Shown: piece after piece, positions 1 to 26,063 of the stretch
Position numbering within the stretch: position 1 is the stretch's first letter
How the letters are laid out: every line of letters starts with the position of its first letter
Assembly: GCA_015490315.1 (NCBI GenBank)
Contig: WFYB01000052.1
Location: forward strand, 1-33,747
Source of the DNA: Sulfurovum sp.
GTDB taxonomy: Bacteria; Campylobacterota; Campylobacteria; Campylobacterales; Sulfurovaceae
Direction: 5' to 3'
DNA length: 33,747 nucleotides
Program-made: the position numbers and the translations under genes
The notes under the pieces: generated by a model
What the model was told of the DNA's origin: nothing
The model's input: the letters and a program-made list of their open reading frames with translations, nothing else
Databases searched by the model: none

Positions 1-1021
1 CAATGACAGCCAGTGCCCAACCTGAACCTTGATTGTACATTTCTGTAGCTTTAAGATCTGCGACCCAATAGCGTCCACTCTGTTGAACATACTGTGTTAC
101 ATTAACAGCAGCACCGTAGTCAAAGATACTACCATCTACCATCCAATTAAACTTTTCATCTGCAGTTAGTGTAACATAGCCGCCTGTTGTAGGTGTTTTG
201 AATCTTATCGTAGCAGCTGATGCTCTTACAGTTTGGTTATCTGTATCTAATCTACCTATCCAATAAAGCCATGCTTCTATGACTTGGTCATTAGCATTAA
301 GTGTTAAATCTGCAGAGGTAGAATTGAGATAGCCGTTAGCAATGGCTTCCGGATCAAGATTGGCATATTCCTGATAGTAGCTATTGTTTGAAGCAGTGAA
401 ACCTGGATCTACACAACTTGAGGTACCGTTTTTCCAACATAATGACTGGTTACCAATCACTAATAAGTCACCATAAATATTGGTATTTTCAGCTCCAGCA
501 ACATTGACCTTTGTAAAGGGTCGAGGGTTGTTTGAGGTTAAAGATTTGGTTGTTGAAATTGAAAAATAGTCAATTCCAACCCATTCATCACTTGCAGTAG
601 AGTCGGGTACTACATCTAGTGTTACAAGACCATTATCATCTGTTGTAATTTCAAAGGATTCGATATAGTAATTACCAGCTCCTTGATATTGTTTGATGAG
701 TGAACCATTCATAAAAACGTTAAGGTAATCAACATAGCTTCCGGAAGTTTCCCATGTAGAAGGTACATAATAACGAAACGTAACATATAAGGTTTGATTG
801 GCATATGAAGTACCAAGATTATATGTCTTGGTTGCAATCTGGTCTCTATTGATATACATATACCCATTATTGTTCCATGTATAGGCATCACCTCCCCAAC
901 CGTCTAGACTGCCATTATTAAAGTCATCATAAGCTAATTGAGCACCAAAATTGATAGATGGGACTAGTATGAATAAGATTAAATATAAAAGTTGTTTGGG
1001 GTATCGAGTTAGATATGTCAC
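1..1021 (-). CDS. Secreted/surface protein, truncated at the left window edge (N-terminal ~340 aa visible)
   Basis: Minus strand is open from a GTG at 1021..1019 to the window edge: (M)TYLTRYPKQLLYLILFILVPSINFGAQLAYDDFNNGSLDGWGGDAYTWNNNGYMYINRD... with a signal peptide and then an Asn/Ser/Thr-rich extracellular-looking sequence. RBS-like AAGAAGG lies about 7 nt upstream. It is missing from the ORF track, probably because no stop falls in the window. Confidence 0.8.
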   Translation of the reverse strand, partial: MTYLTRYPKQLLYLILFILVPSINFGAQLAYDDFNNGSLDGWGGDAYTWNNNGYMYINRDQIATKTYNLGTSYANQTLYVTFRYYVPSTWETSGSYVDYLNVFMNGSLIKQYQGAGNYYIESFEITTDDNGLVTLDVVPDSTASDEWVGIDYFSISTTKSLTSNNPRPFTKVNVAGAENTNIYGDLLVIGNQSLCWKNGTSSCVDPGFTASNNSYYQEYANLDPEAIANGYLNSTSADLTLNANDQVIEAWLYWIGRLDTDNQTVRASAATIRFKTPTTGGYVTLTADEKFNWMVDGSIFDYGAAVNVTQYVQQSGRYWVADLKATEMYNQGSGWALAVI

Positions 1022-1096
1022 AATAGCACCTTCTTTGCTCAATTGAGCGCAAAATTTTTGTATGTATATTGAAAAGTGTTATCATTTAAAGAATAT

Positions 1097-1170
1097 GCTT
1101 ATGGTCGGCAACCCGGCTGTCTCTACAGACCCGTGGCTTTCTGTCCTTCCTTCAAGAAGTTTAGCTTTTC
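1097..1170 (-). ncRNA. c-di-GMP-I (GEMM-I) riboswitch aptamer
   Basis: Minus strand reads GAAAAGCTAAACTTCTTGAAGGAAGGACAGAAAGCCACGGGTCTGTAGAGACAGCCGGGTTGCCGACC. It matches GEMM-I landmarks (GCnAAAC, GGACnnAAAGCC, GCCGGGTTGCC). It sits in the 5' leader of the 1..1021 gene. Confidence 0.88.
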
Positions 1171-1189
1171 TCCATACATTACATCATTT

Positions 1190-1195
1190 AGTATA
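1190..1195 (-). promoter_or_regulatory. Putative -10 box (TATACT) for the riboswitch-led transcript
   Basis: Minus strand ATGTTATACTAAATGATG just upstream of the aptamer; -35 is not clear. Confidence 0.45.
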
Positions 1196-10133: not shown

Positions 10134-10207
10134 TGATAGGCAACCTGGCGATCTGCTTGAGACCCATGGGCTTTCTGTCCTCACTTCGCAATGAGTTTAG
10201 CTTTTCA
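10134..10207 (-). ncRNA. c-di-GMP-I (GEMM-I) riboswitch aptamer
   Basis: Minus strand TGAAAAGCTAAACTCATTGCGAAGTGAGGACAGAAAGCCCATGGGTCTCAAGCAGATCGCCAGGTTGCCTATCA shares GCTAAAC / GGACAGAAAGCC / GCC(A)GGTTGCC with the element at 1097-1170. Confidence 0.88.
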
Positions 10208-10341
10208 TAACAGTGTATTCAAGCGTATATAATAACTCTATTACTATAACATTAGTATAAATTAACTAAGAACAGCTTGAAAGAGAACGCTTTTTAGTAA
10301 AAAATATTAAAAAATAGGAAATTCAGCAATACAGTTTTATT

Positions 10342-25876: not shown

Positions 25877-26063
25877 GCCTGAGTGGAGCGACCACTGTAT
25901 ATGGGGTCCAACATTAAATCTTAGTGGGACATGTAGCCTCTCGGTGTGCGGATGTCTTCGTTTGAGTTCCGGAAACGGAACGAGAAGATATCCCCTAAAG
26001 AGAGGCTCTCTCCTGCGCTGTTGGCTTATTAGGGCCGACTTTAAACAGAACGCCCACTCGGGT
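25877..26063 (+). ncRNA. ssrS: 6S RNA-like structured RNA
   Basis: Nested pairing across about 187 nt: CCTGAGTGG (25878-25886)/CCACTCGGG (26054-26062); AGCCTCTC (25935-25942)/GAGAGGCT (26000-26007); GATGTCTTCGTT/AACGAGAAGATATC; apical GTTCCG-GAAA-CGGAAC (25966-25981). Location upstream of purD. Confidence 0.65.

Follow-up and report, generated by a model that had tools for sequence, protein, structure and literature searches.

The window, i.e. the whole stretch of 33,747 nucleotides that was analysed, is a complete contig, C52, from a metagenome-assembled genome of Sulfurovum (1.8 Mb, 84% complete), whose genus was assigned from the nearest named relative. At the left end of the window, the 5' part of a large gene was found on the reverse strand, in a frame of 340 codons that runs off the contig. 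A Sec-type signal peptide was recognized by eye at the N-terminus of the predicted protein. The gene is preceded by a leader that carries a promoter, a c-di-GMP-I (GEMM-I) aptamer, several elements of a putative expression platform and a Shine-Dalgarno (SD) sequence (Table 1). The earlier note, made from the letters of this DNA, had described a TATACT –10 box, an aptamer at 1097–1170, a hairpin just before the SD sequence AAGAAGG and a GTG-started signal-peptide ORF open to the edge. All of these were recovered, with the aptamer displaced by about 5 nt from its earlier coordinates.

Table 1. Features of the large gene and its leader, in positions of the window
Feature	Position	Strand	Basis
–10 box TATACT, extended –10 TGtTATACT	1190..1195	–	read from sequence; position conserved in L041
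P1 5' strand UAUGG	1172..1176	–	pairs with CCAUA 1104..1100; covaries
c-di-GMP-I (GEMM-I) aptamer	1104..1175	–	RF01051, 55.3 bits
CCAUA, common to P1 (3' strand) and hairpin A (5' arm)	1100..1104	–	alignment and covariation
Candidate anti-Shine-Dalgarno AUAACACUUUUC	1071..1082	–	complementary to GAAGGUGCUAU of the SD/start region; shuffle test with p about 0.11
Platform motif UACAUAC (GAUGUACAUAC in homologs)	1060..1066	–	alignments; conserved
Hairpin C, GCUC-AAUU-GAGC (GCTCAATTGAGC), directly 5' of the SD	1037..1048	–	comparative
Shine-Dalgarno AAGAAGG	1029..1035	–	conserved in syntenic relative L041
GTG start	1021..1019	–	conserved in syntenic relative L041
N-terminal 340 codons, putative PilY1/MshQ-like pilus-tip adhesin, GTG start	2..1021	–	frame open to the contig edge (position 2)

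The Rfam covariance model RF01051 matched the leader with an E value of 2.3e-8, its score lying well above the gathering score of 35 bits. The promoter block with TATACT was found to recur 5' of homologous leaders, nearly all of which carried a hairpin of different sequence at the place of hairpin C. A generic promoter scan of the leader performed no better than on shuffled sequences. Hairpin C folded alone was no more stable than its shuffles, and single-sequence folding of the whole leader was uninformative (z of –0.8).

Another c-di-GMP-I aptamer (50.4 bits) was located in the window at 10211..10136 (–), directly 5' of a PAS-domain gene; the same strand then carries one gene that matches Hpt weakly, a NIT-sensor hybrid histidine kinase and a response regulator. 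In the whole genome, 14 c-di-GMP-I matches were obtained. According to Pfam, some of these aptamers precede surface or envelope domains (SdrD_B, GEVED, Calx-beta, LysM-NlpC/P60, beta-helix) and others precede CZB or PAS domains. The window also contains a purD RNA motif (RF01069, 92.2 bits) at 25933–26063 (+), and it had no match in a plasmid collection.

Leftward extension of the large gene, which had been proposed earlier as a check, ended at the contig edge, but two further contigs of the bin were found to hold the remaining 1119 codons. Among relatives in which the gene is intact, the nearest was L041 (JALWKQ010000071, Sulfurovum sp.; 1483 aa), whose promoter-side neighbours, a 216-aa lipoprotein-like gene and a lon-like gene, match those of the window. 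A search of the window's own genome with the C-terminal part of the L041 protein yielded contigs G000:C36 (L057) and G000:C168 (L058). In gene direction both contigs begin with the same 151 bp, and each has 1119 open codons that end in RLEW. The window breaks off at ...GWALAVI-G and the two contigs start with TT-GTT-GAG...; the joined frame (...GWALAVIIKDKT...) reads like homolog L045, with NISLYDGF against NISLFDGF. We infer that the gene continues into C36 or C168, by a join without sequence overlap and with two candidate 3' contigs, which would give a full gene of about 1460 codons (340 + 1119). The two contigs could represent paralogs or variants from different strains; their 79% identity over the length suggests strain variants at an assembly fork. 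A frameshifted or degraded gene, named beforehand as an outcome that would refute a c-di-GMP-controlled surface factor, was not observed, as both contigs continue the gene in an open, undamaged frame. The protein fragment encoded in the window had no match in Pfam, NCBIfam or the PDB sequences. AlphaFold modelling of the N-terminal head, with two sequences, reached a mean pLDDT of 53, and Foldseek of the model returned meaningless matches, with query TM-scores near 0.2, except for a hint of a CBM36-like jelly roll.

On C36, on C168 and in L041, four prepilin-like genes were found 3' of the large gene. Their prepilin motifs read, in order, IAMIELIFAIV..., FTMLELLFVIV..., FSMITAIFVIV... and FTMLELVFVIV..., with Thr in place of Glu5 in the third. 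Three of the four were backed by Pfam or NCBIfam prepilin motifs, one of the three below the cut-off. Nearly all homologs with enough flanking sequence had at least two prepilin genes directly 3', often with a third one placed divergently. It has been reported that PilX/GspK lacks Glu5, and that PilY1-minor pilin clusters comprise one large protein and four minor pilins, one of them without Glu5 (PMC7541494). The large protein has a conserved C-terminus with 11 invariant columns, ending in RxxW, and head domains that vary among relatives (F5/8C discoidin, Ig/cadherin, PKD, PA14). The C-terminal profile was present in 134 of 175 family genomes and in 92 of 298 sampled genomes of the phylum; against the PDB it gave one non-significant match, laminarinase 16A (E 0.12). 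A PilY1 beta-propeller was not matched by Pfam in the full-length relatives scanned. DUF6701 (PF20419), which we take to be the MshQ domain, matched in 43 of the 175 family genomes, often in the same ORFs as the adhesin family. A C-terminal fragment of L053 reached 65.9 bits for this domain, which a whole-protein Pfam scan of L053 had missed, and the large protein of the window's own genome stayed below the DUF6701 thresholds. MshQ is a putative adhesin of MSHA pili (PMC7096442). Because the operon-mates are four prepilins, one of them without Glu5 as in PilX/GspK, the large gene is best read as encoding the big PilY1/MshQ-like component of an operon for a type IV pilus tip, with swappable heads and a conserved C-terminus.

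To relate the aptamer to this operon, 79 leaders of the adhesin operon were collected and searched with a model derived from 16 aptamer sequences. As three of these 16 had themselves been taken from leaders of the operon, a few matches are not independent. An aptamer on the gene strand was found in 26 of the 79 leaders, being cut by the contig end in one and interrupted by an insertion in another. By genus, these were 23 of 51 leaders in the genus of the window, three of nine in genus g7 and none elsewhere. Rfam confirmed 11 aptamers in a subset of 20 leaders. RF01051 occurred in 106 of 175 family genomes with about 1–21 copies each, so that well under one chance coincidence would be expected in 79 genes. 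Two thirds of the sampled operons had no aptamer, and c-di-GMP control of the operon therefore appears to be optional. The idea of the earlier note, a surface factor controlled by c-di-GMP, stood in that the aptamer lies in the 5' leader of a secreted adhesin-like gene and this arrangement recurs; its stand-alone surface protein was refined to the product of an operon's leading gene, with four minor-pilin genes behind it.

Several leaders showed features of their own. At ∼151–400 (+) of L106, the aptamer 5' of the G070 adhesin is split in P3 by a long insertion, which is nearly perfectly self-complementary and MITE-like, with aptamer halves on both sides. In L133, L134 and L140 the riboswitch may not control the adhesin, because a second promoter-like TAGTATAAT lies between the aptamer and the adhesin start. 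Among Sulfurovaceae aptamers, RF03167 (c-di-GMP-I-GGC) scored above RF01051 in L016, L017, L020, L045, L047, L112, L127, L148 and L151.

The residues equivalent to G20, A47 and C92 of Vc2, whose positions were assigned by aligning to the Rfam consensus and to PMC4744006, were present in the leader aptamer, and these columns were invariant across the aligned own-genome and homologous aptamers. For this reason c-di-GMP, and not 3',3'-cGAMP, is the expected ligand. The flanks form a P1 helix, UAUGG/CCAUA, that covaries among homologs.

The window copy was atypical in P2. The GNRA tetraloop of P2 usually, though not universally, docks into a receptor in P3. Such a loop was found in 36 of 38 parsed aptamers, with a P2 of 16 nt in nearly all. 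In the window P2 is only 14 nt long and, with 2 nt missing, has no GNRA but at best a UGAA loop; the one exception besides the window, L098, has AUAA. The missing loop lowers the expected affinity, not the membership in RF01051. The platform of the window has also diverged, in that hairpins A and B (described below) are poorly kept and hairpin A is poorly formed. In the syntenic L041, the promoter, hairpin C (with another loop), the SD and the start remain, the P2 5' arm and an AGAAAG segment are deleted, and no aptamer was detected in the leader either by Rfam or by the custom model with filters off. The aptamer of the window has probably lost affinity, on the way to a complete loss like that in L041. 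It is quite conceivable, with a probability somewhat below even, that this has gone further and the leader is a decaying relic, insensitive to c-di-GMP, with the operon expressed constitutively from the conserved promoter. The damage to the loop and platform and the fate of the L041 aptamer are consistent with this, as is the report that the tetraloop mutation A24-26U of Cd1 abolishes binding (PMC9262584). Nevertheless, the match scores above several sibling aptamers of the same genome, all three residues that contact the ligand are preserved, as is the complementarity of P1, and the 5-bp P2 with its UGAA loop still folds. The 2-nt loss could itself be an assembly error, the genome being a metagenome bin.

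Alignment of 16 leaders gave a common order 3' of the aptamer, namely hairpin A (CCAUAAGC...GCUUAUGG), hairpin B (CAUC...GAUG), GAUGUACAUAC, hairpin C and the SD. The GAUGUACAUAC stretch (columns 150–160 of alignment A3, window 1060–1070) was among the best conserved of the platform, mostly without assigned pairing. Hairpins A and B were 88% paired, with a covariation of 0.278 against 0.210 when shuffled (0/500), and P1 was 85% paired, with 0.272 against 0.183 (3/500); these counts are inflated by kinship of the sequences and are supportive, not proof. The P1 pairs over the 16 leaders were UAUGG/CCAUA and UACGG/CCGUA. In these alignments P1 and hairpin A emerged as mutually exclusive predicted pairings on CCAUA, both covarying, which is the best evidence for a switch. 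An intrinsic-terminator mechanism was rejected: no terminator was found on the gene strand of the leader, the sole terminator-like site (1036–1049) lying on the + strand and facing away. Because the gene strand has no such site, control is likely translational. Pairing of CTTCTT in the aptamer with AAGAAG at the SD, put forward earlier as the switch, was also rejected. Both sequences are there, but within the aptamer CTTCTT makes up the 5' arm of P2; the P2 arms of other leaders are unrelated (CCTGTC, CCCGTT and others), so that the pairing is not conserved.

When P1 was locked in silico, the accessibility of the SD fell in L112 (0.18 versus 0.38) and L092 (0.36 versus 0.66), and also in L124 and L099. 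It changed little in the remaining leaders, that of the window included, and a comparable rise was not observed in any leader. Duplex energies for SD sequestration were suggestive at most when compared with shuffles, with a p value of 0.11 for the window and above 0.5 for several leaders. In the proposed mechanism, binding of c-di-GMP would stabilise P1, and P1 formation would break hairpin A, since both need CCAUA. The broken hairpin would free a stretch able to pair with the SD and start, and this pairing would lower translation of the adhesin, i.e. an OFF switch. As the SD becomes less accessible on locking P1 in four leaders and hardly changes elsewhere, OFF at high c-di-GMP is slightly favoured over ON. 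OFF switches are known in this class, Vc2 being a translational one (PMC9262584) and the class I switches of C. difficile acting mainly in this direction (PMC6200980).

The same riboswitch and operon might instead work as an ON switch, in which c-di-GMP would make the SD accessible and so switch on expression of the adhesin and the minor pilins, in keeping with the usual sessile programme. We regard this as possible but somewhat doubtful. Activation by c-di-GMP is common among genes for pili and adhesins, as with pilA1 of C. difficile through the class II switch Cdi-2-4 (PMC6200980), and extension of MSHA pili is activated by c-di-GMP through MshE (PMC7096442). In the minimum free energy fold of the window leader, moreover, the 3' strand of P1 is paired with the start region, and P1 formation could free the start codon. 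Against this stand the direction of the change in the leaders that respond to locked P1 and the C. difficile class I precedent.

It is unlikely that the prepilins build a type II secretion pseudopilus or a DNA-uptake pilus, with the large protein as its substrate or DNA-binding tip and not an adhesin. This would suit the weak GspH/GspG/ComG matches and the finding of no more than a single T2SSF/PilC gene and a single prepilin peptidase in the window's own genome, but in a bin that is 84% complete missing machinery genes mean little, the heads contain lectin-like and cadherin-like modules, and the gene content with its Glu5-less pilin fits the PilY1-minor pilin clusters (PMC7541494). A chance aptamer match, or a promoter and leader of another transcript, is highly improbable, for although the aptamer fold alone was no more stable than shuffles, the E value is low, the motif is present in 14 copies in the genome, and its position and strand recur before the same gene family.

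Taken together, the leader at 1019–1195 (–) is probably a class I c-di-GMP riboswitch that controls translation of an operon for a type IV pilus tip, with a slight lean towards OFF switching, and is probably weakened in this copy. The adhesin and the minor pilins would form the tip or priming complex of a pilus, and c-di-GMP would set the number of pili or which head they carry. For Sulfurovum and its relatives in general, we propose only tentatively that a class I riboswitch with an undescribed translational platform switches the pilus tip complex off (or on), and that this control is also being lost. If true, this would place pilus initiation and adhesive specificity under direct control at the RNA level. 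In the usual account the points at which c-di-GMP acts on type IV pili are the extension ATPase or the transcription of the major pilin, and a riboswitch on the tip or priming complex would be a different control point, which would suggest how sulfur-oxidising Campylobacterota tune attachment. The lineage also offers a natural series of intact, loop-damaged and erased aptamers on homologous operons. The riboswitch class is known; the target operon and the platform appear to be unreported, and no study of c-di-GMP riboswitches in sulfur-oxidising Campylobacterota was found in the literature searched.

Among known systems, the leader is closest to the RF01051 switches Vc2, Vc1/gbpA and Cd1, with which it shares the aptamer fold, the G20/A47/C92 equivalents, the P1/P2/P3 helices and a place in the leader of a surface or motility gene. 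It differs from them in its P2, which is 2 nt short and without the GNRA loop, in its target, a predicted pilus-tip operon in Campylobacterota, and in its platform of hairpins A, B and C and GAUGUACAUAC, of which no description was found. Cdi-2-4 on pilA1 of C. difficile is likewise a c-di-GMP riboswitch on type IV pilus genes, but it belongs to class II and controls the major pilin by transcriptional ON switching, whereas the present switch is of class I, precedes minor pilins and a tip protein, and is apparently translational. The pilM riboswitch of Geobacter has a GEMM-I fold 5' of pilus assembly genes; it senses cGAMP and is a terminator-based ON switch (PMC9262584), whereas here the G20 equivalent is kept and the gene strand lacks a terminator-like site. 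On the protein side, the PilY1-minor pilin clusters of Myxococcus xanthus resemble the operon in having a tip protein with a variable N-terminus and a conserved C-terminus and four minor pilins, one without Glu5. In contrast to them, no PilY1 beta-propeller was detected here, the C-terminal module is different, and the own-genome copy has no Pfam match. MshQ of the MSHA pili is similar as a large putative pilus adhesin, and some members of the present family match DUF6701. The own-genome protein falls below the thresholds of that domain, and the c-di-GMP control of MSHA pili described so far runs via the ATPase MshE.
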